Source of the DNA: Candidatus Thalassarchaeaceae archaeon | GTDB taxonomy: Archaea; Thermoplasmatota; Poseidoniia; Poseidoniales; Thalassarchaeaceae | Reading direction: 5' to 3' | Length of the DNA: 32,924 bases | NCBI GenBank assembly: GCA_023700245.1 | Contig: JAJPRE010000002.1 | Span: 98,363 to 131,286 of the forward strand | Shown: in pieces, positions 2,476 to 28,200 of the stretch | Layout: each line of letters opens with the position of its first letter | How positions within the stretch are numbered: the first letter of the stretch is position 1 | Position numbers and translations under genes: made by a program | Notes under the pieces: generated by a model | The model's database searches: none | What the model saw: the letters and a program-made list of their open reading frames with translations, nothing else | Told to the model about the DNA's origin: nothing

Positions 2476-4167
2476 CTATTCTTTATCATATCCTAAATCC
2501 TTATTTTTTATATTATTTACAATAATGTATCCAGAGAAGAATATGCCAAAAATTAATGCTATTATGATTGGCATAATATAAGATAACCCGCCTTCATTGA
2601 CTATTGATTCCCAATTAATGATGGAACTGGTCATGCTACCTCCTCCAAAAGAATCTTCATTCACTAACTGCGTAGGCGTCAATATTTTACAGTTCAATTG
2701 CTCATTTCCCGATTTAATACTTTGCCAATTGAATAATATTTCACCAGTTTCATCGGGATTTATCAAAGTATTGGGGTAACTATCAGTTTGTGCTGCTTCA
2801 CCCGTACTATTCAGATAACATGTAATCGCTATATGGGCCGGCGCATCGCCTACATTTTTTATTTTAGCAATCATCATAATGGATCCTGATGCATTTTTTA
2901 TATTATTTTCTGATTCTAAATTCACCCATTCAATTTTGGGAGTATTTTGAAATATTTTCATACTCTCCATCTTATCTAGTGAAATTCCATAAGTTCCATA
3001 ATTTTCTATCTGGGAGTTTTCTGGATTCCATGCCGTTCTATATTTGATTACATTTATTATTGCATTTTCCTTCCATATCTCATTTTCCTTCCAAATATTG
3101 TCCTGTGACCATGCAATTTCAATAATTCTTTCTCTCCCTCCATCAATGTAAGATATACCTTCTGAATTACTAAAATTCGTATATTTGTTAACGCCATAGA
3201 GTCCCAAAATTTGATATTCAACATAAACGGCATCAAATTCTAGGTACTGCCCTTTAATCCTTCTTTCCCACTTGTCGGTTAATCCTCCAGAGCCAAATGC
3301 ACTTTCCTCCCAATTTATTGTACTTTCCGGCATTGCTCTTATGTCATGATCATCAAAGCTATTTGTAAAATTAGAATTCCCGCTTATCGTTATTGATGAA
3401 TTATCACTTAATAGTAAAATTGGGCCTGATCTATCTAGATAAGAATCAAATAATTTGATATCTCCAGATGATTCAATTAAACCTCCTATTATTGAAGAAT
3501 TATATGAATTCAATGATCCTTCTATATTAATTTCATAATTTCGATTACCAAATGGCCTCATATTCCTGTGATTAAGTTCTATTGCATCATAATTATTTGT
3601 TACTCCTTCATCAAGTATCTGGATATTACTTACAGTTATCGGATTAGTACACCCATATCCATGCATCCCTATCTCAATGTCACCATTCTGGTCACTAAAT
3701 GAATATGAAAATTCTTCCCCACTCATCTCTAAAATTTCATCGTTGATATAGGCACTTGCACCATTAAATGTAGTCCCATCTAGCGCTAAAATCGTAATTT
3801 CAAATTCTCCATTATATAGATCTTCATTAATAATTATTGTTGATCTATTGTACTGATCACAATAGCCATACCCCACTAAGTTAGTAGGTATATTGTCAGA
3901 TATTATGGTCGAATTGTCAATAATTAACTTACCTCCAGATTCTATATTTATGCTCAAACCTGTTGAAATTATAATCTCTGAATTACTGATAGTTAACTTT
4001 CCCCCGTTAATAATTTTTATATTACTTTCTAAATTATTATTTTCAGTCCATGTTACATCTGATTCTATCAATATATCCCCTCCTTCTTGCCCCATCACTA
4101 TTCCTGAAAATGATATATTTAGATACATCATTATCATTATGAACGTAACAAATTTCTTAGTTTTCAT
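2476..4167 (-). CDS. Membrane-anchored surface protein, beta-helix-like, function unknown
   Basis: A 563-aa exported protein of unknown function. It begins with a signal peptide (MKTKKF, then a hydrophobic stretch to about residue 26). Near the C-terminus lies one membrane helix (PIIIALIFGIFFSGYIIV, about residues 531-550) followed by a short charged tail, so most of it should face outward. Residues about 30-95 show short G/N/S-rich strand repeats (KIINGGKLTISNS, NIESGGKLIIDNS) typical of right-handed beta-helix or pectate-lyase-like solenoids. The middle has beta-rich sequence with several N-x-S/T sequons. Residues about 415-510 look like one Ig/CARDB-type domain before the anchor. A local duplication, IWKENEIWKEN, is visible. 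It is transcribed away from carS and converges with gdhA. The architecture resembles the larger protein at 17389-21645. Confidence 0.7.
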   Translation of the reverse strand: MKTKKFVTFIMIMMYLNISFSGIVMGQEGGDILIESDVTWTENNNLESNIKIINGGKLTISNSEIIISTGLSINIESGGKLIIDNSTIISDNIPTNLVGYGYCDQYNRSTIIINEDLYNGEFEITILALDGTTFNGASAYINDEILEMSGEEFSYSFSDQNGDIEIGMHGYGCTNPITVSNIQILDEGVTNNYDAIELNHRNMRPFGNRNYEINIEGSLNSYNSSIIGGLIESSGDIKLFDSYLDRSGPILLLSDNSSITISGNSNFTNSFDDHDIRAMPESTINWEESAFGSGGLTDKWERRIKGQYLEFDAVYVEYQILGLYGVNKYTNFSNSEGISYIDGGRERIIEIAWSQDNIWKENEIWKENAIINVIKYRTAWNPENSQIENYGTYGISLDKMESMKIFQNTPKIEWVNLESENNIKNASGSIMMIAKIKNVGDAPAHIAITCYLNSTGEAAQTDSYPNTLINPDETGEILFNWQSIKSGNEQLNCKILTPTQLVNEDSFGGGSMTSSIINWESIVNEGGLSYIMPIIIALIFGIFFSGYIIVNNIKNKDLGYDKE

Positions 4168-6340: not shown

Positions 6341-9300
6341 ATGAATGATAAACAACAGGCAACAGGAGGTAATTTTTCTTCAAAGGATATTACTTCGATT
6401 CCCGTAATAGTAACTACATTAATGGTACTTTATTTTGGAATAAGTTTTGCCGTTAATGGCGGAATAGGTAATGATGGATATGCGAAGATATTAATCTTGC
6501 CACTTGCCGCAGGTATGGCCGCCGCCATAGGTAGGATTAGTCCATTCTTACCGATGGAAAATTTTTCTAAATATAGGTCAATTTCTATTTCCTTTGGAAT
6601 AATATTAGTAGCATTTTTGCTAAATATTATTTCACCAAGTAATTTCAATAATATCTTCATTATAACATTTATATTCGTTGGTTTATCTTCAGTTGCGTTA
6701 TCTCAACTAAAACGATTCGAAGCCTCAAATATTTTGTTATCAATTGTAGTGGGATTCCATCTTGCAGTGTCTTTTGCATCTAATATTTTTACGGATGCAG
6801 GATTGGACATCAATTCTGAAAGATCTGCAATCGGAATAGCATTCCTGACATTTTGGATTGCTTCCATATCTATGGGGTTCACGCTTGCAATGTACCTAAG
6901 AGGAACATTTGATCACAAGGGCGAAGGCTCACTATTCTCCGAAATGCCAACATTTAATGAAAATAAATCTATTGTAATATTTTCCACTTTTATCTCCATA
7001 ATATATCTCATACCTCTGCTTCAAATTGAAAATAACCAATCTCTTGGAATAGGTTGGGCAATTTTTACAAACTTAATAATTATCTTTTATGCTTTTTGTT
7101 ATTCAGAAAGATGGAATGTTATTGGAGCAATTATTGCCATAAATTGGTTCATATATACATTAGGACATCTTCAAGAAATAGGTAATACGTTTTATCCTAA
7201 TATTTTTGAAGGAGACGACTTTTTGGGCGCCTTTTCTTGGTTTTTTATTACCTTTTGGTTAAATATCTTGGCAATAACATTAGCATCAAGGGGATACTTT
7301 GGCGATATAGCACCTATGCGTACTCATGGTAAATTCAGATTGTGGTGGAATTCTAATTTCTATAATATTTTGATTCCACTCTCATTGATTACAGCCCTTG
7401 CCGTAAGAATCATTTGGAATGTGATACCTGCAATGAATGCATCAGGGACTGGTGACTGGGATATGTCAGGAGGTTCTGATCCATGGTATATGAAGCGTGT
7501 AGTTGATTATATAGTGGCAAATAATAGTCATTTAATTTTTGATATGGATAGAGCTTATCCAATCGGTGCAATTAATCCAAGACCTCCGCTATTTACTTGG
7601 TCTCTCGCATTAGGAGGGATTGCACTATCTTGGATTTTAGAATCTGATAATACTGGAGAAGTAGTTTGGTGGAGCCTAGCTACAATGCCAGCAATTTATG
7701 GCGCCTTGGTTGTATTGCCTGTATCTGGAATAGCCAATAAGATTTATGGGAAAAAAGCTGCCATAATATCAGCATGGCTCATCGCTTTGATGCCGGGGCA
7801 CATCAGTCGATCTACATTCGGTATGGTTGATCACGACTCATTTGCAATACTATTACTATCTACGGCATTTTACTTTTGGATTGCTTCACTTTCTCATATG
7901 AGTCAAGAAAGATTCTTTCGTAAAACATCTGCAAATCCATTGTACTTATTAGCCGGAATTAGGGAATCTTGGATTAGAAATCCGAAAGTTATGGCAAATG
8001 CCACACTCTCAGGCATATCATTTGCAGTCATGGCTCTAGGGTGGAAAGGGTTTGTATATGGTCCTGCAATCATATTCCTAGTATTTTCTCTTCAATTATT
8101 ATTTAATTTGTTCCGTTCTAGAGATAGTATACAATTATGTTCTGCTAATTTCCAGATGCTTTTTACAACCTTCATAATATCTCTTCCGTTCTATGCTTGG
8201 CCAGGATTAAATTTAGTTACTGATCCAAATGGATTACAACCATTATTTTTTATTATTGGCTTTTCTATAATTCTTGGATGGGTAACATGTTCATTCAGGG
8301 ACAAACCATGGTTGTTAGTTCTCGGAGTTGGAACTGCTCTTGTATCATTTATACTTGGCATATTATTCATACTTCAAGAAATCAATGCTTATGCAGGTTG
8401 GGATATCCTCTTCACCGGAGGATTCTACTTTGATAAGAATAAAATATTTGGTACAATTGGAGAAGCACAAGCGCCAAGTAGGGGAGTATTATTCGCATCT
8501 TACGGCCCTATTGTTGCATTAATAGCCCTATCTTTCGCATTCGTATTTCTGTGGAGAGGAGCAAGAAATAATCAAGGAGCATATACTCTACTTGGTTCTT
8601 GGGGAATAATTTCTACATATATGGCTTGGTCTGCAGGTAGATTTATCATAAATGCAACGCCAATAATGGCAATATTGGGAGGGATAGGTATTGCTATGTT
8701 ATGGAAATCTGCAAATTTTTCACAATTTACCAAAGAATGGAGAAACTCAGGAATTGGAACTCCTAGGGCTAGATTCCGTTCATTATGGCCTGCCACTAAA
8801 AGTCATGTTGGTGTTCCTATAATGGCAATTATATTCATGCTAGTATTTTCACAACATGTAACCTATGGAATAGACTCTGGAATTCCTCGACAATCAGAAT
8901 ATGCTTCTGATGTCGACCAAACAATATATGATTTAACTCCAGACATTCTAAAGACAAAATTAATTGGGAAGTTTTCTATATTGGATAGCTCGGATTATGA
9001 TCCAAGCTCTTCATCAGGTTTGCAATACATAGGTACATTCGGGCCAAGTTTCAATTCATATGGCTGGAATGATGCATATTCATGGCTAGAACAACAAGAT
9101 TCAGAAATTAGTTTTTCTGAAAGGCCAGCCTTTGTTTCTTGGTGGGATTATGGTTTCAGTGCTTTAGCACATGGTCAACACCCTACCGTTGCAGATAACT
9201 TCCAATCAGGAATACCTCATAGTGGAGGAATGCTATTATCACAAGGTCAAGAAGATACAATTGCGTTATTCTTAACTACTCTTACTCAAGGAGATATGAA

Positions 9301-12300
9301 ATATAATGGTGGCCTTAGTGAAGAATTACTAAATTCATTATCCAATAACATGAACGATGCCCAATTAGGTGAATTTATCAAAATAATGACTAATTCTAAA
9401 TCTTCATTTGTAATAGAACACGCAATGCAAGTAAGAGCTGCTAGTAATGGAGTAGAATTATTAAGTGGATTCCCACTTAATTCAAATGGCGTACCTTCAA
9501 TGGAAATTGAGTGGATCGTAGTCTCCGAAAATGGAGACACTACGTCGCTTGGTGGAAATCAATCAGCGGCAGTTTCATTATACAACCAAACAAGAGGATC
9601 TGCTTCAGTATCTTCAACATTAAGCGATTGGGATGAAGAACTATCTCCGTCTTATTACGATATTGGCGGATATAGGTACACCACGGATTTAATAGATGAT
9701 TTCGAATCTGCTTCTACTGGAATTCATAGAACTAATTCAAAATTGGCTATTTCTAGAGCCTTTTTTACTTCAAGTTTTGACATTGAACAATTGGTAGATA
9801 TGTATCACGGCATCTCTAATTCAATAACCTATTCAGTTCAAGATTACGAAGGGGCTTTAGGTGAAACTGTTGATAGAAATAATGAGATTAGATATTTCGC
9901 CGTAGATAATCGTTTGTACCCTCTTGGCGGTTCGTATTACGATGATTATTCATATCATTATGGTCAAACTACTGGTATATTCCATGCTCCAACCGGATTA
10001 TCTGGTCTAGATATGGATGACTATATTTCGACCCTTTATCAAACTCAAAGAGGTGATGGCGCAATAACTCCTCTTACAGCCGAACAGTTCAATGATGCAT
10101 ATATGCGAGATTTGGAACTCCAACAAAGTGGTGCAATTTCTGATGCTAGCCAAGTCATAAGGTATACTGATATTGACTATCAACATACTGCAAATTTCTT
10201 TGAAACAATGGTTGCTAGAACCTATGTTGGCTATGGGACCTCCACTCTAGGCCTACAAGGAGATGCTGAAACTCCTTCAGTTTGGTTTAATCCTCAGACA
10301 ACCGGTTTAACAGGTGCCCCAGGATCGTATTTACAGAATGCTTGGGCCTTACCGGGTGCAATGATGAATCATATGGTAATTTCAAATTGGTATGACAGTG
10401 ACTATGACGACGATGGTTTAGATAACCTAGTGGATGATAGGAAATGTGATGAGTTAATAGAAAGTTCAACAATACAAAATATATCGATTGGAGATACATC
10501 CATATTGTTGTTAGATGGGTCACTTATGCCATTAAGTGGAAGTGCATTTATTTATCATCCGACTGGAAATATTTCTATCAAGTGGACAGATAAAAATGAT
10601 AATACGTTATCTGGAGTTACTGGAGTTACAAAAGAAATAGTTTCTGATTCTTTACTATCTCATAACCCATCTGCACTTTGCGGAAGTATATATGATTCAA
10701 ATCGTTTCGTAAAAATTCTGAAATACTACAGTGGTGCAACTTTAGAGGGAACGGTATCACTAGATAGTTCTGGAATAGTCCCAAATGCTCGTATTTTGGT
10801 AGAAAGGGATGCATTCAGCGGAGATGAAATTGAAAATGCAGATGGAAGTGTTATTGATAGAGATGACAGGACATATTGGATACCAATAGGTTATACAGAT
10901 TCTAATGAAGATGGTGAATTTTCATTAACTGTTCCAGCAGGTAAGATTCGCGTATCGGCATATATTGGAGATATAGATTTAGATTCAGCCAGAGCGTCAA
11001 TCATGACTTCTGATGTTGGCTCTACTATGTTTGAATTAACTATTGAAGAAAATAGTCAAAGAATGACAAACCCAATTACTGGAATACTTGGAAATGTTGC
11101 TGGGGCAACTTGGCTAGCAGAATCTATTGTCAATATTTCAGGTACGGATGGACACAGTAACGGAAATGAAATACTACAAGTCAACATAGATGTAGATTCA
11201 TCTTCTGCATCTGGCGTCCTAACTTGGTCTGGTAGTGGAGATTTTAACGGCAATCCAATTAAGGATGCTCAAATAGTTCTTTCACCATCTTCTGAAAGTG
11301 TAATCCTTGCTCCCTACTTACTAGATACTTCTAATGGATCCGTCGAAGGTACCGAACTTCAATTCCAAGGTTTAGGTAATGTTTCATTTACTGGAGAAGG
11401 TAGCGTCCAATCGGATAGTATTTTATCAGTTTCAAATTTTACTGGAAACCATACTCAAACTGTGTATAATAATCACAGCATAATTGGAGATGGATTATTT
11501 GTTGGCCAAGGACAACTATCTAATGGTTTAATAAATGATGATATTACAATTGAAGATTGCCAAGATAACATATTACCAAATGGTAATATTTTATGTCATC
11601 TTGGTGATGGCAAATATTTGTTAAATGGTTCTATAAATGCTTCAGGCAAGTTTACTTCAGATGGCATTTCTACATTCACCAAATTCCTAAATCAAGCTAC
11701 TCTAATAGGATCAGGTATTTTTACAGTAGATACTAGCCTATCATTGGATTCATATGGAATAATTGATGGAATTGGTTCTTTTTTGGGAACTGGGATATTT
11801 AGTGGCCCAATGGTACAGCCTGGAACATTCCAAGTAGATGATGCAATACCTGGTACATATGATGTTTCTGTTATATTCGAGGATGGCTCTCATGTCAACT
11901 TGAGTACTCAATTCATCATACCTCTTATGAAATCTCCAATGCCTACTCCAATAAGTGTGTTTGGAGGATCAATATCTGGGAATTTAATTGATTCTGCTGG
12001 TGCGATAATTAATTCCTCAATATCTTTAATTCATTCTGAAGATGCCAATAATGGGGAAATCCCAACGGGAGATTGTTTAATTGTAAATGTTGCACCATGT
12101 TTGATTTATCCAGATGATTCTGGCAAGATCACATTTGGGCCTATAATTCCAGGATCATATGTTGCAGAAATAGATTCAGATAATGATGGAATGCCTGAAA
12201 TTTCAGTAGTTTATGATTTTAGCTCTGATGTATCATTCGATGCAATATTCCCATCTCCAATACCTGAAACATCTGATTTACGTTTTAAATTATTAAATAA

Positions 12301-15300
12301 TAATATATCAATTGAAAATCTTAATGTTTCATTTTATTCAGAAAATGATGAGACGAATATTATTAATGCATTATTTAGTTCCGATTTAAGTGAATATATT
12401 ATAGAATTAACTCCAGGTACTTGGATATTAAGTCATAATTTGGATGAAAATAATCAAATTTGGAAGATTATAGAGATAGGTTCGGAAGATTTAGTTGCAG
12501 AATATAATTTTGAAGTGAGTAAAATTATATCGGGAAATGCCTATCTTTCAACAACGTCACTTAATAATGAATCAATAATCTCAGTATTGCCTAATCAACC
12601 TATAAAATTATACTGGGGTGACGGATTATCAACAATAGTAAATTCTGACTCATCTGGATATTTCGAAGTTTCATTACCTGTAAATTCAATCGTAGATGCA
12701 TCTTTAATTTATACTTTAGATACTGCATACTCCTCGAATATTAGGTTTATAGTAAATACTGATATTGATGATAATCAATCATTTAATTTAACGGCGAATA
12801 GAGCAATTATTGTTGATGGTACATTAAGTATAGATATATTGGGTAATTATTATACTAATTCTCTGATTGACTGGGAAATTATGAATGTCATTGCGCGTCA
12901 AACACCAATTGATGAATCTCAACCCAATTGGAGGGCTGCTGTGGATCAAGGTGGTAACTTTAGAATGTTTATTAAAGAAGGTAATTGGCAATTTTCAATT
13001 GAATCCAACCTTAATATTTCCATTGATGAAGAACTCAATTCTTTTTATATTAATGAATCATCCAAAAATGTTGATTTATTAATTAACTCTGAAATGAGTT
13101 TTGTAATTATTGATTTCTTTATCGACCACAGTCAAGATGGCAACATGACTAACGGGACATTGGTGAATTATCCCTTTGCAATTAAATCTACAAATCCATT
13201 TATACCTACATATGAATTTAGTTTATCTAGTGATGAATGGATTTCAACAGGCAGGGCCGAAATTTCTTTATCGCCAGGCGTATATAATATAGCAATAGAT
13301 AGGCCAAATCCATCTTCAGGCGATGAATTCGATACATTGTATAATTCAAATGATATTATTGAAATAGGTTTAATTTCAAATTCTATTTCAATTCCAATAG
13401 CATTTGAACCTAACTGGTTGACTAATATTACTATTAAGAATGAATCTGGTGGCCTATTAGCAAATGAATTAGTTAAATTAAAGGACGTTGATTCTGGATG
13501 GTTGCTTTCTTATATGACTAATTCTAATGGTTCAATTTCAACTTATATCCCAGAAGGTCAATGGTTAGTAACTGTTGATCCAACAGAAACAAATTCTGGT
13601 GTTTTCGAAAGTATTCGAGAATTACTTAATGTATCAAATATTACTGCTTCGCAAGAATCAATACTTAGTACATCTGAAGTGGCTTTTACTACAATCACAT
13701 TAACAGATGGTGTAATGCCATTATCTAATGTGCAATTAAAATTAACAAATGATATTTTAGGCAGCTTTAACTCTCCCTATTCTGACGATCTTGGAAGAAT
13801 TGAATTAAAAATTGAGCCAGGTATGTGGGATGTTGAATTGAATTATACCGATACTAATGAAGTAATGTGGATTATTGATTCTACTCCCATATCTGCTAGC
13901 GAACTGACTCCAGGAATAAATCAAGATATTGACTTAAATGTAAGCAAATATGTCAGTCTCAAAGGAACTGTGTATTGGGATTTAAATGATAACGATTCTC
14001 CTAACATTGGAGAAGGTATGTTCAATACTTCTTTGATATTAATATCTGATGACCAGAATATCTCTCTAAAAACGGATGAATCTGGACAATGGTCGACCTA
14101 TCTTCCATATGGAAGTAATTGGACGATTTATTCTGAATTAGATGGTTTCGATAATGAAGAGGTAAATGTTACTTTGGTTGACGATTCAAATGTCAAAAAT
14201 ATCGAAATATCTGCTGGAATAGTGGAAATTACTGGTCAAATTTCTTATATTGATGCCGATCAATTTCAAGATATATCAGATAATGTGGAAATGATTATAA
14301 TGCCTAAATCAGGAATTATAAGGGATAGAGTTATTCCAAACAAAATACTTGATGATCAAATGTTGTGGAATGGTGAATGGAGCGCTATGGTTGAACCTGG
14401 TGACTGGATAGTTTGGATAACGGCCGAATCTTCATCTAACAATGTTCCATATTTAGTTTCAATGAATTTCATAGATGTAGGAATTGGTATAAATAATGTA
14501 CAATCGGATCTTTCAATCGGTGGTAAATTAATTTTAGATACTAAATGGTTAGACTATAATGGTACTTCGAATAACTTATTGGATTTAGAATCTCATAATA
14601 TTGTTCTTAGCAAATCCGGCTCTAAATTGAGTTGGGACGAGCAATTAGGAAATGATGGAATATTGGAATTGATATTACCAGCAGGGCAAATTGATACCTA
14701 TAGTAGCTTTAATTTCTCTCAAAAAGATAGATTAATGGATTATTCAGGTGGCAAAGGCGCCACTATCAGATCTTCACAAACCACTCCTTTGATAACTCTC
14801 GAAATTACTGCCGTAAAAAATCAAGATATTTCAATATCTAATTCAGGTCTTGGTTATGCAGATTTATCTTTGTCCGTTTCAAATTGTATAGTTAATTGTA
14901 CATATAATCCAGTTGAATTCAACTTCGATATAGAATATTTGGGGCACCAATCTTACGATAATTATACTATTAATGGCGTAGTTCCGGGTGCTGACGGTTC
15001 TCTGTGGGAGGTTGAATTTAAAGATACATTCGGTAATTGGACAAATACTAAATCAATTGATATGGGATTAGAGAATTCAATGATGAGTATATTACAGGCT
15101 AGAATTATTCCAGCTAATGTAGATGAAGCACACCATTTATTAAATGGCCATCAAATTAAAATTATATTTTCTACAATGGATGGTTATGTCAAAGAACATG
15201 TTATAATTGTAAACGTACCTCAGAATCATCAATTTAGTTCTGATGGATTTTTGGATGATGTTTATGGCATAGTAGAAAACGAGTTACTAAGCATCGATAT

Positions 15301-16039
15301 TGAATTCTCAAATTATGGTAATGGTGATGACATATTTAGGTTTGATTATAGCATAGAATCAATAGATGATTGGACTATATCGGGAATACAGTCTCAACCT
15401 TCATCTCCATTCTCTAATGGATCTACTGCTGTTTCTATACTTCCTCCAACTAATCTTACTGATGCCGTTTACACACTTCAATTACTCGTTACTGGTGAAA
15501 ACAACGATACTTACGGGCCGTATACTACTACAATTATGAAATCAAGTCCAATATTATCAATTTCTGATGACAATAGTATCATGCTGTTAAGTGGAGATAC
15601 CGGACCCCTAGCGGGAGAAATAGCCACGTATTTGGTCGTAGTTAAGAACTCAGGTTTGATAGATGCATCTTCTGTTGAATTAAATGGAGTACTTTGTTCT
15701 GATATAGGTTGTAATAATTTCCTCGGAGTTAATGGTTCAGATATTTCCAATGTTGCCGCAAAAGGAAGCTCTACCTTTTATATCAACATGGATTTTGCAA
15801 ATATTGAAGTTGAGAAGTATTTCGTCGAGTTTTACTTTTCCGATATTCCTAGAGTTGAAACAACGTCATGTAGTGATTTAAAATTTGATACTACTGAATG
15901 TGTTAAGGAAGCTCAGGTACTCACCCCAGATGAAGATTCTGATAATCCATTGTTAGGATATATTATTGGCTTACTTCTTTTAATAACTCTATTGTATATC
16001 ATCAGTAAAGCTACAAGAAAGCCAGGTGCACCTTTCTAA
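6341..16039 (+). CDS. aglB: Giant STT3/AglB oligosaccharyltransferase with repeat-rich surface tail
   Basis: Transfers a lipid-linked glycan to Asn of N-x-S/T sequons on the outer face of the membrane. Residues 1-840 are a multi-helix membrane domain with the STT3 acidic motifs: GGSDPWYMKR (Asp380) in the first external loop and GMVDHDSFA (Asp497, Asp499). The soluble catalytic part carries WWDYG at 934-938. Known archaeal AglBs usually end at about 600-1,000 residues. Here a Ca-loop-like segment, DSDYDDDGLDNLVDD (about 1352-1366), is followed by some 1,865 extra residues: a GxG-rich strand region (about 1627-1826), at least 11 Ig/carboxypeptidase-regulatory-like units (about 1790-2800), CARDB-like domains (about 2840-3190), and a membrane helix (about 3204-3222) with a basic tail. 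The frame is unbroken. The tail holds many sequons, so self-glycosylation is plausible. The enzyme call is firm; the role of the tail is unknown. Confidence 0.92.
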   Translation: MNDKQQATGGNFSSKDITSIPVIVTTLMVLYFGISFAVNGGIGNDGYAKILILPLAAGMAAAIGRISPFLPMENFSKYRSISISFGIILVAFLLNIISPSNFNNIFIITFIFVGLSSVALSQLKRFEASNILLSIVVGFHLAVSFASNIFTDAGLDINSERSAIGIAFLTFWIASISMGFTLAMYLRGTFDHKGEGSLFSEMPTFNENKSIVIFSTFISIIYLIPLLQIENNQSLGIGWAIFTNLIIIFYAFCYSERWNVIGAIIAINWFIYTLGHLQEIGNTFYPNIFEGDDFLGAFSWFFITFWLNILAITLASRGYFGDIAPMRTHGKFRLWWNSNFYNILIPLSLITALAVRIIWNVIPAMNASGTGDWDMSGGSDPWYMKRVVDYIVANNSHLIFDMDRAYPIGAINPRPPLFTWSLALGGIALSWILESDNTGEVVWWSLATMPAIYGALVVLPVSGIANKIYGKKAAIISAWLIALMPGHISRSTFGMVDHDSFAILLLSTAFYFWIASLSHMSQERFFRKTSANPLYLLAGIRESWIRNPKVMANATLSGISFAVMALGWKGFVYGPAIIFLVFSLQLLFNLFRSRDSIQLCSANFQMLFTTFIISLPFYAWPGLNLVTDPNGLQPLFFIIGFSIILGWVTCSFRDKPWLLVLGVGTALVSFILGILFILQEINAYAGWDILFTGGFYFDKNKIFGTIGEAQAPSRGVLFASYGPIVALIALSFAFVFLWRGARNNQGAYTLLGSWGIISTYMAWSAGRFIINATPIMAILGGIGIAMLWKSANFSQFTKEWRNSGIGTPRARFRSLWPATKSHVGVPIMAIIFMLVFSQHVTYGIDSGIPRQSEYASDVDQTIYDLTPDILKTKLIGKFSILDSSDYDPSSSSGLQYIGTFGPSFNSYGWNDAYSWLEQQDSEISFSERPAFVSWWDYGFSALAHGQHPTVADNFQSGIPHSGGMLLSQGQEDTIALFLTTLTQGDMKYNGGLSEELLNSLSNNMNDAQLGEFIKIMTNSKSSFVIEHAMQVRAASNGVELLSGFPLNSNGVPSMEIEWIVVSENGDTTSLGGNQSAAVSLYNQTRGSASVSSTLSDWDEELSPSYYDIGGYRYTTDLIDDFESASTGIHRTNSKLAISRAFFTSSFDIEQLVDMYHGISNSITYSVQDYEGALGETVDRNNEIRYFAVDNRLYPLGGSYYDDYSYHYGQTTGIFHAPTGLSGLDMDDYISTLYQTQRGDGAITPLTAEQFNDAYMRDLELQQSGAISDASQVIRYTDIDYQHTANFFETMVARTYVGYGTSTLGLQGDAETPSVWFNPQTTGLTGAPGSYLQNAWALPGAMMNHMVISNWYDSDYDDDGLDNLVDDRKCDELIESSTIQNISIGDTSILLLDGSLMPLSGSAFIYHPTGNISIKWTDKNDNTLSGVTGVTKEIVSDSLLSHNPSALCGSIYDSNRFVKILKYYSGATLEGTVSLDSSGIVPNARILVERDAFSGDEIENADGSVIDRDDRTYWIPIGYTDSNEDGEFSLTVPAGKIRVSAYIGDIDLDSARASIMTSDVGSTMFELTIEENSQRMTNPITGILGNVAGATWLAESIVNISGTDGHSNGNEILQVNIDVDSSSASGVLTWSGSGDFNGNPIKDAQIVLSPSSESVILAPYLLDTSNGSVEGTELQFQGLGNVSFTGEGSVQSDSILSVSNFTGNHTQTVYNNHSIIGDGLFVGQGQLSNGLINDDITIEDCQDNILPNGNILCHLGDGKYLLNGSINASGKFTSDGISTFTKFLNQATLIGSGIFTVDTSLSLDSYGIIDGIGSFLGTGIFSGPMVQPGTFQVDDAIPGTYDVSVIFEDGSHVNLSTQFIIPLMKSPMPTPISVFGGSISGNLIDSAGAIINSSISLIHSEDANNGEIPTGDCLIVNVAPCLIYPDDSGKITFGPIIPGSYVAEIDSDNDGMPEISVVYDFSSDVSFDAIFPSPIPETSDLRFKLLNNNISIENLNVSFYSENDETNIINALFSSDLSEYIIELTPGTWILSHNLDENNQIWKIIEIGSEDLVAEYNFEVSKIISGNAYLSTTSLNNESIISVLPNQPIKLYWGDGLSTIVNSDSSGYFEVSLPVNSIVDASLIYTLDTAYSSNIRFIVNTDIDDNQSFNLTANRAIIVDGTLSIDILGNYYTNSLIDWEIMNVIARQTPIDESQPNWRAAVDQGGNFRMFIKEGNWQFSIESNLNISIDEELNSFYINESSKNVDLLINSEMSFVIIDFFIDHSQDGNMTNGTLVNYPFAIKSTNPFIPTYEFSLSSDEWISTGRAEISLSPGVYNIAIDRPNPSSGDEFDTLYNSNDIIEIGLISNSISIPIAFEPNWLTNITIKNESGGLLANELVKLKDVDSGWLLSYMTNSNGSISTYIPEGQWLVTVDPTETNSGVFESIRELLNVSNITASQESILSTSEVAFTTITLTDGVMPLSNVQLKLTNDILGSFNSPYSDDLGRIELKIEPGMWDVELNYTDTNEVMWIIDSTPISASELTPGINQDIDLNVSKYVSLKGTVYWDLNDNDSPNIGEGMFNTSLILISDDQNISLKTDESGQWSTYLPYGSNWTIYSELDGFDNEEVNVTLVDDSNVKNIEISAGIVEITGQISYIDADQFQDISDNVEMIIMPKSGIIRDRVIPNKILDDQMLWNGEWSAMVEPGDWIVWITAESSSNNVPYLVSMNFIDVGIGINNVQSDLSIGGKLILDTKWLDYNGTSNNLLDLESHNIVLSKSGSKLSWDEQLGNDGILELILPAGQIDTYSSFNFSQKDRLMDYSGGKGATIRSSQTTPLITLEITAVKNQDISISNSGLGYADLSLSVSNCIVNCTYNPVEFNFDIEYLGHQSYDNYTINGVVPGADGSLWEVEFKDTFGNWTNTKSIDMGLENSMMSILQARIIPANVDEAHHLLNGHQIKIIFSTMDGYVKEHVIIVNVPQNHQFSSDGFLDDVYGIVENELLSIDIEFSNYGNGDDIFRFDYSIESIDDWTISGIQSQPSSPFSNGSTAVSILPPTNLTDAVYTLQLLVTGENNDTYGPYTTTIMKSSPILSISDDNSIMLLSGDTGPLAGEIATYLVVVKNSGLIDASSVELNGVLCSDIGCNNFLGVNGSDISNVAAKGSSTFYINMDFANIEVEKYFVEFYFSDIPRVETTSCSDLKFDTTECVKEAQVLTPDEDSDNPLLGYIIGLLLLITLLYIISKATRKPGAPF
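11220..11815 (+). repeat. GxG-rich short-strand repeat region in the AglB tail
   Basis: The translated region (about residues 1627-1826) repeats a short motif of hydrophobic-x-G-x-G-x-F/L-x-G type: WSGSGDFNG, FTGEGSVQS, IIGDGLFVGQGQL, LIGSGIFTV and IDGIGSFLGTGIFSG. This pattern suggests a small beta-solenoid inserted between an upstream Ig-like unit (its PAGKIRV turn at 10934-10954) and the downstream array. The units are diverged, so this is a protein-level and not a DNA-level repeat. Confidence 0.5.
11830..14720 (+). repeat. Tandem array of ~95-residue Ig-like units in the AglB tail
   Basis: A strand signature (small/acidic)-P-G-x-W/Y-x-V/I recurs with near-constant spacing. The G codon of the turn falls at 11852, 12152, 12416, 12680 (degenerate, LPVNSIVDASL), 12980, 13277, 13556, 13820, 14111, 14399 and 14684, so the steps are 264-300 bases. 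Examples are IPGTYDVSV, LTPGTWILS, KEGNWQFSI, PEGQWLVTV, EPGMWDVEL and EPGDWIVWI. Before most of them stands a D/S-x-x-G-x-(F/I/W/L) segment such as SSGYFEVSLP or ESGQWSTYLP. This is typical of carboxypeptidase-regulatory-like and SdrD_B-like sandwich domains. VYWDLNDNDSPNIGEG near 13972 is a particularly SdrD_B-like opening. Confidence 0.7.
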
Positions 16040-16096: not shown

Positions 16097-17332
16097 TTGC
16101 AGCCTTTAATTAATTTGGACCTTTTGCCGGAACCAGATGACCCTAATATTTTGACTGCTATTGATAATAATGCAATTGGTTACCCAGGCAAAGCGTATGG
16201 CATTTCTGATAATGACTCAAAAAAATTAAGGAGAAATTTTTCACCATTGAAGAAAATACTTTGGCCATGGGGCGCTCTTATGTTTTCGTTATTTGTTACA
16301 TTTTTGATTTTAAGTTGGCCCATAATTAGTCCTTTGATATCTTCTTCATTACCTGATTCTGAGTGGGCATTTGATGAAACAGGAATAAGGGAAATGCAGG
16401 AAAACGGATACTATGGTTCTGGAGTAAAGGTATGTATGGTTGATACTGGTATAGATATTTCCCATCCGGATTTTTATAATGTTAAATTAGTTGGTTTTAG
16501 GGACTTTTATGGTAATTCTCATTCTGATGTGAGAGATATAGGAACTAATTCTCATGGTACATTGATGGCAGGTTTACTTGTTGCCAATGGGACTTTAATT
16601 GGAGCTGCGCCAGAAGTTTCTCTATCTATCGCGATATCTTTGGGGCCAACCGGACAATCTGGCCAAGAGAGTATGGTTTCACAGGCTATAAGATGGTGCA
16701 GAATTACTCAAAAGGCAGATATCATTAGCTTAAGTCTTGGTGCAAATCCTGGGGAAAGAATGGATGATACATCAGATACAGTTTTAGCAGTCAAAGAAGC
16801 AATAAATGAAGGTATTTTTGTAGTAGCTGCTGCAGGTAATACTGGATTAGATGAATCAGTTTATGATATTTCAACGCCTGCAAATGTAGAGGGAGTAATA
16901 TCAGTAGCAGCATCAAATAAAAAAGGCTTAATCTGGGGAAACAGTGCTATTGGTAATGAAATAGATCCATATACTGATTATGAAAGAGCATTTCCTAATC
17001 AAAAGCCAGAGATTTCAGCCCCTGGAGTAAGGCTATTATCAACATACTCTGCTGAATCTTCAGATTCACTTTATGCATATTCTTCGGGCACTAGTGACTC
17101 TACAGTATTAGTAACTGGGGCACTAGCATTACTATTGGAGTTATACGGAGACGCTATTGCTGGTGAAGACAACGTAATTAGCTATGATGAATTGATGCAG
17201 GTAAAGAAGGCACTTGCAAAATCTACAGGATCAAATATTCAAGGTTCAGATCATGACTTAAAAAGAGGATATGGGTTGTTAAATGTTAACTTATGGGCAC
17301 AAGAAATAAAAAATGAATTTGATTTTAATTAA
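16097..17332 (+). CDS. Membrane-anchored subtilisin-like (S8) serine protease
   Basis: A 411-aa subtilase. Residues 1-53 are a charged, probably cytosolic N-terminus. One membrane helix spans about 54-80 (WPWGALMFSLFVTFLILSW), placing the protease domain (about 90-400) outside the cell. The catalytic triad is visible: Asp116 in VCMVDTGIDISHPDF, His153 in NSHGTLMAG, and Ser333 in SSGTSDSTVLVTGALALL. The oxyanion Asn248 is in AAAGNTG. The serine segment departs from the usual GTSMAAPHVAG, lacking the Pro-His pair, though GTS and the following helix remain. No inhibitor_I9-type propeptide is apparent. It sits 57 bases after aglB and 5 bases before the next gene's stretch, so it is very likely co-transcribed. 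Cleavage of nearby surface proteins is an inference. Confidence 0.88.
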   Translation: MQPLINLDLLPEPDDPNILTAIDNNAIGYPGKAYGISDNDSKKLRRNFSPLKKILWPWGALMFSLFVTFLILSWPIISPLISSSLPDSEWAFDETGIREMQENGYYGSGVKVCMVDTGIDISHPDFYNVKLVGFRDFYGNSHSDVRDIGTNSHGTLMAGLLVANGTLIGAAPEVSLSIAISLGPTGQSGQESMVSQAIRWCRITQKADIISLSLGANPGERMDDTSDTVLAVKEAINEGIFVVAAAGNTGLDESVYDISTPANVEGVISVAASNKKGLIWGNSAIGNEIDPYTDYERAFPNQKPEISAPGVRLLSTYSAESSDSLYAYSSGTSDSTVLVTGALALLLELYGDAIAGEDNVISYDELMQVKKALAKSTGSNIQGSDHDLKRGYGLLNVNLWAQEIKNEFDFN

Positions 17333-17388
17333 AATTTTTGACACTCTCAGACCCTATTGTTAAATTAACTAGTCACGCCCGAAGTTGT

Positions 17389-20300
17389 ATGGGCAACAAT
17401 CCTAAAGCACGTAGTACTTTTCTAGTTTTCATAATGTTTTCTAGTATTTTAATTTCTTTAATAGGCCCAGCTTCATTCGTATCTGCAAATAATGAGACTG
17501 ATTCTGGAACCATTACTGGAACTGAAATATGGTCTGGGATACATGAATTAACAGGAGATGTGACTATTGCAACTGGTGCCCAATTAATTATTAACCCAGC
17601 TACTACTATTTCAATGCCTAATGGTACTCATATTGATGTTAGAGGAAGTATTTGTGCAGGGATGATTTCATGTGGCGCAGATTCTAATGCCAACCCTAGC
17701 CAAAAAATTACGTTTCAATGGAGTGATCCTGAGGTTTACAATGCTGGATATTGGGAAAATAAGAATGCAACTGGCGATTGCGTTGGCTTAACGCAAAATA
17801 ATCAAGAAATATCGGTAGTTGATCCCTCGTGTTACGAAGGTATTTTAATTCGGAGCTCGATTGATCTTTCCCTTACGGGTATGAGGCACGTCGTATTTGA
17901 TGGTGCATACGGATTACCTCATTTCATATCTTCAGTTAACGAGTGGAGATATGGTGCTCTGGTTATAGATGGCGCAAGTCCAACTTTCAAAAACTTAGAT
18001 TTTACAGATATAAATACTTCCAGTATCATTACCACCAACTTGGCACAACCAATTCTAATTGATGGTTCATTTACGGTTGGTAATGATGAAGAAAGTAGCG
18101 TCGGTGGTTCAGCATTACAAATTTACTCATCAGGAACCTCAGTTGCCCCATTTACATTAAATAATCCATTTTTTAAAGATGGAACTGAAAAGGGATGCCA
18201 AAATAATGACGGAGGCCGCTCTGCATTATGGGCACAACAATCTTTCGTAAATATTGATGATGCTAATATCGGTTTAGGAGATTTTGGAGTCACATTTAGG
18301 GATACGGCAGGAAAAATTACTAATTCCACAATTAATGTAAATTGCGTTGGAATCTCAATCCAGGGCAAGAGGACAGTAAGCGGAAACTCATTCGGTTTGG
18401 ATATTTATAATAATGATATAATTACTTCTGAAGGCACAGGTATATTTTCTTCAAACAGTGCTTTGGTAGATATTCGAAATAATCAGGTCAGCGGCGCATC
18501 TGGTGGATCTGGAATTGCAGTTTCATCTAGCGTAGCTAAAATTCACAACAATGACATAGGACCTATTGGAGGGTTTAATGGTCTTTGGCTTTATGGTTCG
18601 TTTGAAGTAGAGGCAGAGAATAATACTATCTCTGAAACAAATAAAGAACCTATTATCGCTGGTGAATATTATTATTCTGATACCCAAATTTCAAATTTAT
18701 ATCTTGTAAATAATGAAATATCTACCGATGGAACAGGTGCGTGTTCAAGCACGAAATGGTGGGGCGGAGAATTCCAATGTCCTGCTATTATGGTTTTCAG
18801 ATCCGGAGCTACAATACATGATAATAATATTGCAGCAGGAGATGCAAATGCTATTATGGCAAAAGGTGCTTTATTAGATGTTCAGAGAAATACATTCGAT
18901 GGTGCACTTACGGGTGCATTAATTACCAACTATGATGATGGATATGTTGATAGTCAACAATATGGTTCATTAGCGTTTTTCTCCCAAAATACTTGGTCTA
19001 ATGTTCAAATGACTTACAACGTTACAAAAAGTTCTGTAACGGTTCAGTCTGAAAATATTCCATCGGCTCCTACTGGGGAATACCCTGTAAGGTTATCTTG
19101 GCCAGATCAAGAAGCTTGGCCTGCAAATGGTTTTCAAACTCGAATAGAAGTCCCACCAGTAAAAAATTGCCCAGCTTGTGACGATATAATTCCTCGTAAT
19201 TTCCCACTTGCCCTAAATATGGATAATAATTCTACGGTTTTTACTTTTTCTAATTTATCAAATTTAGATACAAATAATATTTTTATTGAATCTCAACCAA
19301 CTCATTATGCCGTACAAGTGAGTAGGGCAGAGTTAGTAAGATTCCAGGCATTAATCAATGGAGCGGCCGTTTCAGATGCTTTAGTATTAATAGAAGATGC
19401 ATTAGGCAACGACCTTTACACGATATTAACTAAATTAGATGGTTATACTCCATGGTTTTCTCTTCCTTCTAATTTCCATTTAGACTTTAGAGGATTGGGC
19501 GGAGGAGATAATCCCGATGGTTTTGCCGATGATCAATATGAAGACTCATGTTCTGATGGAATAGATAATGATGGTGACCTTACAATCGATAATGATGATT
19601 CAGATTGTGATAATTCACAGGGTACTCGCGAATTATCAAGATATTTTTATACAATTTATCGCTTTGGATTTGGATATGCTACAGGAGAATTTACACTTGA
19701 TGAATCAACTTATCAAGATTATATAGAACTTGTTAATTTGGCACCTTCGGTTGAAATAACTCAGTCTAATGGGCACTCATACAGGTCAATTGTGAATGTC
19801 ACAGGTAGCGCATATGATGGGCAACTTGCAAGTAGTTATTCTACAAATGAATTGGCTCAGTGGGATCAACAAGGGTATGTTCACCGCATTGAAGTAAAAG
19901 ACCCATTTACAAACGAATGGCAAAATTCTGGTATGGCAATTGACGATAGTGGGGCAAATAATGGAATTGTAACAAGATTCAACCATCCTTTTAGCGCATG
20001 GTATTTTGAAATTGATATGTCCAATAGAGAGGAAGGAGATTATAGTTTTGAATTTAGGTCATATGATGGAACTGATTACAGCGAGATAATTACTAGAATT
20101 TTTAAAATTAATACTGAAGCTCCAATTATTTCAGTATCAACTCCAGCATCATTATCCAGTCATTCTGATGGTACTATTCACTTCGAAGGTGATTCTTCTG
20201 ATCCATATGGCTGTCCCTTGGAATGTAATGTAGATATAACTTCAATATATATGCTGATAGAAGGACCAAATTTTCAAGTCACAACTCCAATAGAGGTAAA

Positions 20301-21645
20301 TGATGGAGGTACTTGGGATTGGGATTGGGATTTTAGCGGACAACCAAGAGTTTCTGCATCCTTTACGTTCACAGTTTGGGCATCTGATTCTGATTTTTGC
20401 AATGGGATAATTGATGTTTGTTCTCCAATTATTCTATCATTGACTGTAGATAATTCTAATCTTGCACCAAGCATTAACATAAATGAACCGTCAGATGGCA
20501 TGAGGCTATCAGTTTCTGAAAATACTTTGGTAAGTGGTGTTGCGAGAGATTTCGATGGAGATGTTTCTAGGGTTGATATGGAAATAAAAGATATAGAAAA
20601 TGAATATATAGTAATTCATTCTCATTCAGTTTCAGATTTCTCAGAAAACGGGGAGTGGAATTATTCATGGGACTCATCCAATTTAAATCATGATTCTCCA
20701 TACCTCTTAAGATTTAGGTCGTATGATGGATACGATTATAGTGGATGGTCTGAATTACAAATTATCGCAGATAATCCTCCGGATGCTAATAATAATCAGC
20801 CTACTTTTACTTCAGAAGATTGGATAGATAGCACAACATTGTATTGCGATTTAAATTCAAAATCATCTAATAGATGTACAACCGCAACAATAAATTTACT
20901 CCAGTTCTTTGATGATGTAGATTCTGATTTAGAATATATATCGGTATATAATAGCATAGATGAATATGATGATAATTATGGTATTGTAATCAAAGTAAAT
21001 AGCAACGGAATTGCAACATATAATCCAACTGATATGAATTTTTATGATACTGATATTTCTACATGGTCCTTGACAAATATTATTTTCGTCGCAACTGATC
21101 AATTTGGATCAAAGATAAATTCAAATCCTACTTCATTTATTGTCGAACCTGTAGAATTTATAATTACTACTTTGGATAATGATATTGTAGATGATGATGG
21201 AGTTATGCTTTATTCTGGTTCTGGACTCCCAGGGCAAACAATATCTGTAAGCATAGGTGGCAATACAGTAAATACCACTGTAGTATCTGAAGATTCATCC
21301 TGGATACTTGGTGTCCCTGCTTCCAGAATCCCCGGTACATCGGCCACTCCTGAATTCTCAATGGGGGGACAAGATTCCATTCCTGTTGATATTATTTACA
21401 AAGGTGAACAAGATGAAAATGGATTTCCTATTGGATACATAATTATTACAATAATTATAATAATGGCACTTGCATTATTGGCATACTTCTTCATAGAAAT
21501 TGAAGTTTTGGATGAAGACAGCGAATTAATTGAAAATAATTTAGAATCCGGAAAAGAATTGCAGAAACACGAAGATCATCCTGGTTGGCTTTGGAATACA
21601 GTTGATGAAGAATGGATAGAAGATCCTAATCATATTTCAGAATGA
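17389..21645 (+). CDS. Large beta-helix surface protein with cytosolic W-rich tail
   Basis: An exported protein of about 1,418 aa, function unknown. I chose ATG 17389 over the in-frame TTG 17338 because it gives a compact signal peptide (short basic start, then FLVFIMFSSILISLIGP, ending near SANNET); neither has a clear Shine-Dalgarno. Residues about 35-550 contain right-handed beta-helix repeats rich in NxI/V turns (IYNNDIITSEGTGIFSSNSA, IRNNQVSGASGGSGI, IHNNDIGPIGG). A Cys-bracketed Ca-loop, CSDGIDNDGDLTIDNDDSDC (about 721-740), resembles MopE-type metal-binding motifs. Three or so Ig/cadherin-like domains follow (APSVEITQSNG, APIISVSTPAS, APSININEPSDG). A membrane helix (about 1349-1371) and a 47-residue acidic cytosolic tail with HPGWLWNTVDEEW end it. 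Last gene of the aglB-protease unit and a likely glycosylation or protease substrate. Confidence 0.8.
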   Translation: MGNNPKARSTFLVFIMFSSILISLIGPASFVSANNETDSGTITGTEIWSGIHELTGDVTIATGAQLIINPATTISMPNGTHIDVRGSICAGMISCGADSNANPSQKITFQWSDPEVYNAGYWENKNATGDCVGLTQNNQEISVVDPSCYEGILIRSSIDLSLTGMRHVVFDGAYGLPHFISSVNEWRYGALVIDGASPTFKNLDFTDINTSSIITTNLAQPILIDGSFTVGNDEESSVGGSALQIYSSGTSVAPFTLNNPFFKDGTEKGCQNNDGGRSALWAQQSFVNIDDANIGLGDFGVTFRDTAGKITNSTINVNCVGISIQGKRTVSGNSFGLDIYNNDIITSEGTGIFSSNSALVDIRNNQVSGASGGSGIAVSSSVAKIHNNDIGPIGGFNGLWLYGSFEVEAENNTISETNKEPIIAGEYYYSDTQISNLYLVNNEISTDGTGACSSTKWWGGEFQCPAIMVFRSGATIHDNNIAAGDANAIMAKGALLDVQRNTFDGALTGALITNYDDGYVDSQQYGSLAFFSQNTWSNVQMTYNVTKSSVTVQSENIPSAPTGEYPVRLSWPDQEAWPANGFQTRIEVPPVKNCPACDDIIPRNFPLALNMDNNSTVFTFSNLSNLDTNNIFIESQPTHYAVQVSRAELVRFQALINGAAVSDALVLIEDALGNDLYTILTKLDGYTPWFSLPSNFHLDFRGLGGGDNPDGFADDQYEDSCSDGIDNDGDLTIDNDDSDCDNSQGTRELSRYFYTIYRFGFGYATGEFTLDESTYQDYIELVNLAPSVEITQSNGHSYRSIVNVTGSAYDGQLASSYSTNELAQWDQQGYVHRIEVKDPFTNEWQNSGMAIDDSGANNGIVTRFNHPFSAWYFEIDMSNREEGDYSFEFRSYDGTDYSEIITRIFKINTEAPIISVSTPASLSSHSDGTIHFEGDSSDPYGCPLECNVDITSIYMLIEGPNFQVTTPIEVNDGGTWDWDWDFSGQPRVSASFTFTVWASDSDFCNGIIDVCSPIILSLTVDNSNLAPSININEPSDGMRLSVSENTLVSGVARDFDGDVSRVDMEIKDIENEYIVIHSHSVSDFSENGEWNYSWDSSNLNHDSPYLLRFRSYDGYDYSGWSELQIIADNPPDANNNQPTFTSEDWIDSTTLYCDLNSKSSNRCTTATINLLQFFDDVDSDLEYISVYNSIDEYDDNYGIVIKVNSNGIATYNPTDMNFYDTDISTWSLTNIIFVATDQFGSKINSNPTSFIVEPVEFIITTLDNDIVDDDGVMLYSGSGLPGQTISVSIGGNTVNTTVVSEDSSWILGVPASRIPGTSATPEFSMGGQDSIPVDIIYKGEQDENGFPIGYIIITIIIIMALALLAYFFIEIEVLDEDSELIENNLESGKELQKHEDHPGWLWNTVDEEWIEDPNHISE

Positions 21646-25079: not shown

Positions 25080-25260
25080 GCCTATAATGTTCCGTGTGCA
25101 TAATAGTCTATCAATAAATACTATTAAATTAAATAATAACTACGATTTTAGAATAATTTTTCACAACTCATCGTTTATACTAATTTCAGTATGTCTGAAC
25201 TACGCTCCATCAGTATCATAAATTAGTTATCACCCCTTTAAATATAAAATAGTGGTAACC

Positions 25261-28200
25261 ATGCGTAAAAAACAAATAAGCGCATTATTATTATCATTTC
25301 TGATCTTAAGTAGTTTAGCATTTGTTTCTCAAACTAGGCCTCAATCTTCAGTTTCTTCAATTAATCCTAATGATGCAGAAGGCGGAGAACCTCCCATTAC
25401 AGATCAGGATGGAGATATGATACCAGATATGCATGAATTTATATTTGGAGATGATATTAATTTGGAATTAAATAATTTTAATATGATAATCAAGGGTCTT
25501 GACTCGTATAATGCAACTGATAATATTACGGATCACGACAATGATGGTGCGACTGCATTAATGGAATATTGTTGGCCATTCACTTTAGATTCGTGTTTAG
25601 ATTCTGAGAAAAGAAATTCTTTAACTGGCAAATCCCCCTCTGAAACCAAATCCGGTTTACGTGAATATTTGGATCCACGAGTTGCGGATACCGACGGGGA
25701 TGGCCTACCTGATGGCTACGAAATTCATATGTGCACCAGCGGAGGCGTCGGTTCACTAAATCCCTTAACAAATACATGGGATTGCTTATATTTTGATCCA
25801 CTGGATGGTCGGGATTTGATAGAAGATTTTGATCGGTGTGATAAGGATTTTAGTTGGGGCTGTGGAGATGGTTTCGATTTTAATAAGGATGGAATTATAG
25901 ATGCAGGTGAAAAATTTACTAATACTGAAGAATACTTATTTGGTGCACCCAATGATTGGATTACGGAAAGAGATGGCCTGTGGTGTTATGGCCAAATTCA
26001 AGGACTTAGTATATCTTCATGCCAATCAACATATGAAAGACCTACTCTAGATGATGGCTGGCTTGGGACAGATCCACGATTCTCTGATTCTGACTATTAT
26101 TCATGGACGGATTCAACCGCATCTTCGTTAACCTCAATTGGAGATGGTATACCTGATGGATGGGAAGCTTATAATGGACTAGATCCAAGAAATTATAGTG
26201 ACTCAATTACTGATCCAGATGGAGATGGCTGGGACATTAATGGCGATGGATTCTTAACTCCTGATATCACAATTTCAACCTCTGAATGGGGTGAACAATT
26301 CAGTAATTATGAGGAATATGTGGTCGATTCAGATGCAGGCACGGGAGTCTCTCCTGGAGTTGTGGGGATGAAATTATTAAATGATGGCGGGCCCATAATT
26401 TCCTTCAATCACGACTCTAAAACATCATTAGTCGACAGCTCGATAAATGATGTAATCGCGGATTCTCTGAGAAATAGGCTTATAATTGGTTCAAAATATG
26501 GTATATCGGTAGTAGACCCTTTCAGGGAAACATCGACTCTATTTCACTTAGATCAAGGAACTGAAATGAATATATTGGAGAAATACGAAATTGGAGATTA
26601 TAGCTATCTATTGATGGGAACAAATAAAGGTTTACAAATCTCTAAATTGGTAAATGGTTTACCTGAATTTGACTCTATGTTTTTTTTCCCAATGGGGTCA
26701 ATAACAGAGATTTCAAAATTAGAAACACAGAATAGTAATTTGGATTTACTGATTGGAGGAAACTCAGATATTTGGAAAGTCAGACTGTATGATGGATTTG
26801 AAAATGTACCGTATTATGAGAATATTGACCATGTATCTGAATTATCAGATTTATTAAATTCTTCTAACTCTACTATTACTGCCATTACTCATGTAGAAAT
26901 GGATAGCAGAATTCCGTTATTATTTGTTGGTACAGATTCTGGTTTAATAGCATGGAATACTACTGATGGAATTTCATCAATAGGAAGTCCTTGGTGGGTT
27001 TTTAATAAGACTAATGCTGATTATTTCGTCAATGAAAATATATTTGACTCTAGTAGTACTTCAAGAGTAAATCTATTGCAAAAAGAAATTGTAAATGGGG
27101 ATCTAAATGGGCTATGGTTAGGTATGGCCGGTGGAATTTATTTAATTAAATTGGATTTAATAATATCTCAGCCAACTGAAGCTTTTAACAATGAAAGAAT
27201 GTTAAATATTGATAATATTCTAGAAGGAGCTAATGATATTAGATCTATATTATCATATAATGACAAAATAATAATTGGCTCTAAATTCGGTACATGGTGC
27301 TTAGAAGGAAATGCTCAACAAGGAATATTGGGGATGTATCTTAATCAAACTATGATACCTGGTCTAGTTACATCTTTTGCATTATTGGAGAATTCTAATC
27401 AAACATGGGTATTCGCAGGTATATCTCCCGGCCAATACATGAATATAGTCCCCTTAAATCCTCTTTCTAATGATTCTGATTTAGATGGAATGCCGGATGG
27501 TTGGGAGTATGTCAATGGCTTAGATCCTACAGATCCATTTGACGCCGCTAGAGATTTAGATGATGATGGGGTCCAATATTTAGGTAACGACGGTCTCCTC
27601 CTGGATAGACTTTGGACCAATCTTGATGAATATAGGTATAGTTCTATTTCTGACGCAGGTGATAATAGTACAGATCCTAGAAATGTAGATTCCGATGGAG
27701 ACGGATTAACAGATGGAGAAGAATATTGGGGGTGGTTTTCTGATTCTTCAATCTTTAACTGTCATTACATTAATCTGCAGTATATCTGTGATGATGAAAC
27801 AGGGTTATCTGCACTTACTGTTCATTTAGAGGGATGGTTGGGCTCAGGTACGGGAGGAGGAACAGATGGCCCCACTGATCCAACTAATGCTGACACCGAT
27901 GGCGATGGTATGCCAGATGGTTGGGAAATTGAAAATAGGAGGTGGATAGGAAATGAATATACAGGAGGAAATGAATGGACACTGGATCCACTCAATCCTA
28001 ATGATGCGTTTCTCGATGCCGATGGAGATGGTCTAAAAAATATTTGCGAATATAAGTGGAGTAATTTATTAGATTCAACTTTACAAAATGGCCTTCTTTC
28101 TCATGGTGAAACAGCCGAAGCAGCTAAAGATTGGATACATACTGATCCAAATTCAGTAGATTCGGATGGAGATGGCTTACCCGATGGGTGGGAAGCTCGT

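Follow-up and report, generated by a model that had tools for sequence, protein, structure and literature searches.

A giant AglB/STT3-type oligosaccharyltransferase with a novel membrane module and a long anchored tail throughout the marine archaeal order Ca. Poseidoniales

We found that a single frame in the analysed stretch of 32,924 nucleotides (the window) encodes an order-universal giant form of a known enzyme family, the STT3/AglB-type oligosaccharyltransferases (OSTs), with a novel membrane module. In the open-reading-frame reading of the window, the frame runs uninterrupted from 6341 to 16039 on the forward strand, where the adjacent S8 subtilase described below also lies, and specifies 3,232 amino acids. 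In all three domains of life, N-glycosylation centres on the enzyme STT3, and Marine Group II, to which Ca. Poseidoniales corresponds, is a globally abundant, uncultured marine order. Homologues were detected in 299 of the 319 genomes analysed from the order, and the fusion of the enzyme with its C-terminal tail is real and ancient. The giant OST, whose activity is predicted, is the only protein-glycosylating enzyme detected in the order. It is apparently undescribed, since no description of a giant or tailed AglB was found in the open-access literature searched. We put at about 0.6 the joint probability that the frame is the organism's OST of the AglB/STT3 family, extended at both ends, and that it would form the self-contained glycosylated arch proposed below.

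The catalytic core was identified by several features. Pfam STT3 matched residues 379-782 (E=1.4e-18; 68.1 bits against a cut-off of 24.5), the Pfam AglB core gave a sub-threshold match at the WWDYG motif, and the nearest solved structures were those of Archaeoglobus fulgidus AglB (3waj and 5gmy, E=1.5e-11), which aligned over residues 352-665 plus the WWDYG stretch. The GT-C membrane core of STT3 (residues 331-841; 7331-8863), recognised by Pfam STT3 and TIGR04154, contains the catalytic Asp380 of the first DXD-type motif within GGSDPWY (7478-7480), the second DXD-type motif Asp497-His-Asp499 (7829-7837), and TIGE, a TIXE-type motif, at residues 705-708 (8453-8464). The soluble catalytic domain (residues ~842-1360; 8864-10420) carries WWDYG at residues 934-938 (9140-9154). 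D380, D497, D499, E708 and WWDYG showed no variation in all 51 complete relatives (51/51). Homology to the GT-C core, both DXD-type motifs, the TIXE-type glutamate and the WWDYG motif of the extracellular domain together characterise AglB/STT3 (GT66) enzymes, and all are present. The unbroken frame with STT3 hallmarks that the initial annotation described is thus borne out; its VDHD motif exists but spans residues 496-499 rather than 497-499, the acidic pair being D497/D499, and the TIGE loop glutamate is a hallmark that it lacked. No clear DK or MI motif, which forms the Ser/Thr pocket, was seen in residues 985-1030 from sequence alone, and variant types of this motif are callable only with a structure (PMC3703281). 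TIGR04154, which describes the STT3 subfamily of the archaeosortase system, matched residues 349-971 (E=2.5e-47) with 161.8 bits, below its curated cut-off of 450, which places the protein outside that subfamily although archaeosortase A is encoded in the source genome. No second STT3 was found in this genome of 1.47 Mb; because the genome is only 82% complete, a tail-less second STT3 could be missing. The AglB-L proteins of A. fulgidus (3waj/5gmy) and Pyrococcus furiosus likewise have the GT-C core, DXD-type acidic residues, TIXE-type loop, WWDYG and extracellular catalytic domain, but the A. fulgidus chain that was matched is only 875 residues long, compared with 3,232 here, and has neither the ten-helix N-terminal module nor the beta-sandwich array nor the C-terminal anchor.

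The tail that follows the catalytic domain is a tandem array of beta domains. It includes an AglB-type VKILKYYSGATLEG segment (at residue 1457) with a first CarboxypepD_reg unit (residues 1457-1545; 10709-10975), for which the Pfam profile fell just below its cut-off here and was detected in 49 of the 51 relatives. An order-specific beta-meander insertion (residues ~1600-1825; 11138-11815) comes next; its AF2 model has long strands and two invariant cysteines, and it has no counterpart in other STT3s of the phylum, whose matches begin at ~1825. Some eight to nine further prealbumin/CarboxypepD_reg-like beta-sandwich units, placed by unit profile centres, occupy residues ~1860-2800 (11918-14740), and two CARDB/NEW3 (NPCBM_assoc)-like Ig domains, supported by Pfam matches in relatives, occupy residues ~2945-3190 (15173-15910). 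Other STT3s of the phylum have homologues of this CARDB/NEW3-like end where their own tails finish. The AF2 model of residues 1360-2400 was all beta (pLDDT 83), with low confidence at model residues 85-97 (1444-1456). As the initial annotation had proposed, a second membrane anchor closes the chain: hydropathy places a helix at residues 3204-3222 (15950-16006), followed by the basic tip KATRKPGAPF. The C-terminus reads NPLLGYIIGLLLLITLLYIISKATRKPGAPF and has no PGF-CTERM signal before the membrane helix. Mean identity over the order, per 100 residues, is held at 27-57% throughout the tail, indicating that the tail is under purifying selection. The description of the tail as surface-layer-like did not survive, since no S-layer family matched the frame among the Pfam or NCBIfam results; tail profiles matched CarboxypepD_reg/prealbumin, SdrD_B/SpaA, CARDB/NEW3 and NOMO domains instead. 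Foldseek searches with the tail returned CnaB/SpaA-type pilins and streptococcal protease domains at very low TM-scores, which speak to the domain class only.

Profile searches of the PDB connected the tail to NOMO. NOMO2 was the sole match for residues 1360-2400 (E=5e-5) and the top match for residues 2380-3232 (E=2e-4), and for tails from the rest of the phylum it was clearly the top match (E=3e-37), followed by SdrD at 1.9e-8. Several two-domain stretches can be aligned to NOMO2, repetition inflates the total score, and single tail sequences found nothing in the PDB; the match therefore holds at the level of domains and not of orthology, which we do not claim. At that level, by profile comparison, the tail and NOMO share a domain class and its tandem order. 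NOMO, a subunit of the BOS complex of the eukaryotic multipass translocon, likewise combines tandem prealbumin/transthyretin-like domains with membrane anchoring, but it is a separate protein complexed with Nicalin and TMEM147, whereas the array of the order is always fused to STT3. The translocon that contains NOMO (TMCO1/BOS) is without OST in human cells (PMC7505659).

Tailed STT3s are widespread in the phylum. When the PF02516 profile was run over 390 genomes evenly sampled from Thermoplasmatota, the length of the STT3 frame was lineage-specific, at ~800-1,430 aa in some families and 2,080-2,750 aa in many; complete genes fetched from other lineages included long-tailed frames of 2,076-2,743 aa. 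In f3, the sister family within the class, STT3s measure ~2,340 aa, compared with 3,120-3,335 aa in the order. The length after WWDYG amounts to ~300, 560-840, 1,500-1,900 or 2,200-2,350 residues in different lineages. Among the complete genes fetched, a membrane helix with a basic tip ends all STT3s of at least 2,076 aa, including all complete members of the order shown, and none of those of at most 1,430 aa (the gene of L120 is truncated at a contig end). Other tails of the phylum were matched by segment profiles built from the order, with E values down to 3e-26 for residues 2400-2800 and 6e-18 for the C-terminal end. On a quick tree of STT3 cores, the order formed one clade with f3 as its sister, and the anchor trait needed just two changes. 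Given the homologous tails and this two-change distribution, we infer that the anchored repetitive tail is ancestral in much of the phylum, its length being lineage-specific and longest in the order. The other long-tailed STT3s share with those of the order the core, the CarboxypepD_reg-type array, the CARDB/NEW3-type end, the C-terminal anchor and the enrichment in sequons described next; they are shorter and have no homologue of the N-terminal module or of the 1600-1825 beta-meander. The long fused tail that the initial annotation singled out is thus real but not peculiar to this gene. In two other families of the phylum (L128 and L135), the STT3 tail terminates in a PGF-CTERM-like sorting signal, from which it follows that the OST may be an archaeosortase substrate.

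The tail is rich in N-x-S/T sequons, as the initial annotation stated, and this richness exceeds what composition gives, both in the order and in the other tailed STT3s of the phylum. The tail in the window has 42 sites compared with 28.1 expected after shuffling (z=3.0). Over 43 tails of the order, the observed-to-expected ratio was 2.0 with a mean z of 5.05, and over the tails of 27 other STT3 proteins of the phylum it was 2.6; the catalytic domain across the order is depleted (0.42). Control motifs in the order tails stayed close to expectation (reversed motif, 1.10; D-x-S/T, 1.01; Q-x-S/T, 1.04; the range quoted for Asp and Gln being 1.0-1.07). Among 226 open reading frames of the same genome, the sequon ratio was 1.02 for those without membrane segments and 1.13 for secreted ones. 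A composition effect is rejected by the reversed, Asp and Gln controls and by these genomic frames. Individual tail sequons are moderately conserved (mean 25%), and their asparagines are slightly better conserved than other tail asparagines (0.27 versus 0.18). The two sequons noted at 13142-13159 are present as the tandem N2268-M-T and N2271-G-T, the first retained as a sequon in 66% and the second in 97% of divergent relatives. The enrichment suggests that the tail is probably glycosylated. Its pattern is the one that should be expected of a real N-glycoprotein, and it should not be read as implying modification in cis by the protein's own enzyme; self-glycosylation of the tail, which had been suggested from the sequons, gains indirect support. 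Enrichment in the tail together with depletion in the catalytic domain makes self-glycosylation a concrete prediction.

The reading that we favour is a self-scaffolding, self-shielding single-chain OST. Sequons of exported proteins would receive a lipid-linked glycan from the enzyme, and so would those of its own tail or of a neighbouring one. The array, glycosylated and part of a chain that hydropathy and prediction anchor in the membrane at both ends, would arch above the active site as spacer and shield, so that the tail may act as the tether or canopy that the initial annotation envisaged. The arch would keep substrate chains close to the enzyme in the manner of eukaryotic accessory subunits with luminal beta-sandwich domains, and its architecture would be NOMO-like. 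The accessory subunits Ost1, Wbp1 and Swp1 place luminal beta-sandwich domains around STT3, and each is membrane-anchored; they are separate chains, unlike the single chain of the order, and among the families listed none of the three had a profile match to the tail. On the favoured reading, the order, and much of the phylum in shorter form, built extracellular bulk into the enzyme itself, whereas eukaryotes use separate substrate-managing subunits. With this natural series of tail lengths, the role of accessory domains can be tested directly, in part in lineages that have cultured members.

The most serious competitor, which we regard as possible but a good deal less probable, holds that the tail is a structural envelope stalk between the membrane and an outer layer and takes no part in catalysis. 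The tail domains do resemble stalk and pilin modules (CnaB/SpaA-type and SdrD_B) in fold and profile, the length after WWDYG varies freely among lineages from ~300 to 2,350 aa over a constant core, and the PGF-CTERM-like ends of L128 and L135 are shared with archaeal surface glycoproteins. Such a stalk is harder to reconcile with a tail that is never encoded apart from STT3 in the 319 genomes of the order and with an insert, conserved order-wide, that lies shortly after the catalytic domain; moreover, a single copy per enzyme is a costly route to building a layer.

The gene neighbourhood bears on a different proposal. The order CarS, GARS, OST, S8 subtilase and beta-helix surface protein is kept in loci of the order with enough flank, and the arrangement from GARS to the beta-helix protein is preserved in both families of the order. 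A membrane-anchored S8 subtilase (16097-17332; Pfam Peptidase_S8, E=1e-40) lies directly 3' of the OST in every such locus, and it may act in processing surface proteins or the OST tail. The subtilase might accordingly release or nick the tail to yield a separate glycoprotein and an AglB of normal size. Besides the conserved gene order, this proposal can draw on residues 1301-1500, which are filled in only ~70% of relatives, and on residues 1444-1456, whose low model confidence is linker-like. We nevertheless consider it unlikely: no recognisable cleavage motif was seen, other families of the phylum have the tail without a syntenic subtilase (as judged on short flanks), and cutting would give no release because both ends are membrane-anchored. 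The neighbouring syntenic protein (17338-21645; 1,435 aa) has a signal, a right-handed beta helix, a Big_7 domain and a C-terminal membrane helix; its sequons are depleted, with 13 seen against 20 expected.

The fusion itself is genuine. A search with residues 341-1320 against the 319 genomes of the order recovered the homologues in all 22 genera and both families. Uncut copies are single frames of ~3,120-3,335 aa, and the single frame recurs in assemblies made independently, among them one from a single cell (L045) and one from an isolate with the name PACB (L040) that was probably built from long reads. Split copies were seen in L073, L086, G134 and G182. In the two REDSEA MAGs (L073 and L086), the splits are frameshifts, the tail resuming immediately downstream in another frame, and in the single-contig genome G182 the split coincides with an N-run gap. 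The last 432 residues, used as query, always fell inside the same large frame where the contig was intact, and a tail encoded as a separate gene was not found in the 319 genomes. The two weak points raised by the initial annotation, a collapsed stop or frameshift and relatives with a separate tail gene, were both looked for: no hidden break emerged, no such relative was found, and the tail was confirmed as fused to STT3 throughout the order. The idea that an assembly or frameshift error fused an aglB of ordinary size with a surface-protein gene lying downstream, to which a draft source assembly of 50 contigs and the few split copies might lend colour, has a negligible chance of being right and was dropped: hundreds of assemblies, independent of one another and from 22 genera, have the same fusion, it occurs elsewhere in the phylum with other lengths, and the splits examined are frameshifts or an N-run gap. 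An oligosaccharyltransferase-annotated transcript rose while an MGII genus was active (PMC9723583), which suggests expression of the giant OST gene.

The extension at the other end, absent from the initial annotation, is an order-specific membrane module of ten predicted transmembrane helices (residues 1-330; 6341-7330) placed ahead of the first STT3 helix. Since the number of added helices is even, the topology of STT3 is unchanged. The AF2 model has ten helices (pLDDT 81.4, pTM 0.79), and the invariant residues include G236, E256, W269 and W300. Comparison with PDB folds gave no match at E<=0.001 (best E=0.85). A profile of the module was matched in 125 genomes, every one from this order, and always in the STT3 frame save for contig-end fragments; the same search found the module neither outside the order nor in a gene separate from STT3. 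A known membrane protein was rejected as its identity on these grounds. It is thus a conserved membrane module without a match among solved structures; its possible roles are handling of the lipid-linked donor and docking of the export channel. A far-reaching version of the favoured reading, which we regard as a long shot, would make the protein the equivalent, in one chain, of the eukaryotic OST and its luminal scaffold, with the NOMO-like array and STT3 in functional coupling from early in archaeal evolution, the N-terminal module acting as a flippase-like glycan carrier or export-channel docking unit, and NOMO descended from, or sharing ancestry with, an OST-coupled array. Elsewhere in the phylum, L120 and L123 have ~280 residues added ahead of the STT3 membrane part, and L126 and L134 have inserts preceding WWDYG; both kinds of addition are non-homologous to the module.

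Other proteins of the source genome were also recorded. The fasciclin-plastocyanin surface protein at 16974-18986 of L160 (G000:C1) ends in a PGF-CTERM-like signal, which is consistent with the archaeosortase system of this genome being active. Within the window, 25252-30972 encodes a secreted protein of 1,906 aa with TSP3-like calcium repeats and no close family. A second giant surface-protein frame, at 1-8505 of L166 (G000:C7), is a different protein: its 2,835 or more aa contain RCC1 repeats and numerous He_PIG domains. In the part of the genome that was sampled, it is the other large protein with strong sequon enrichment (64 against 39).
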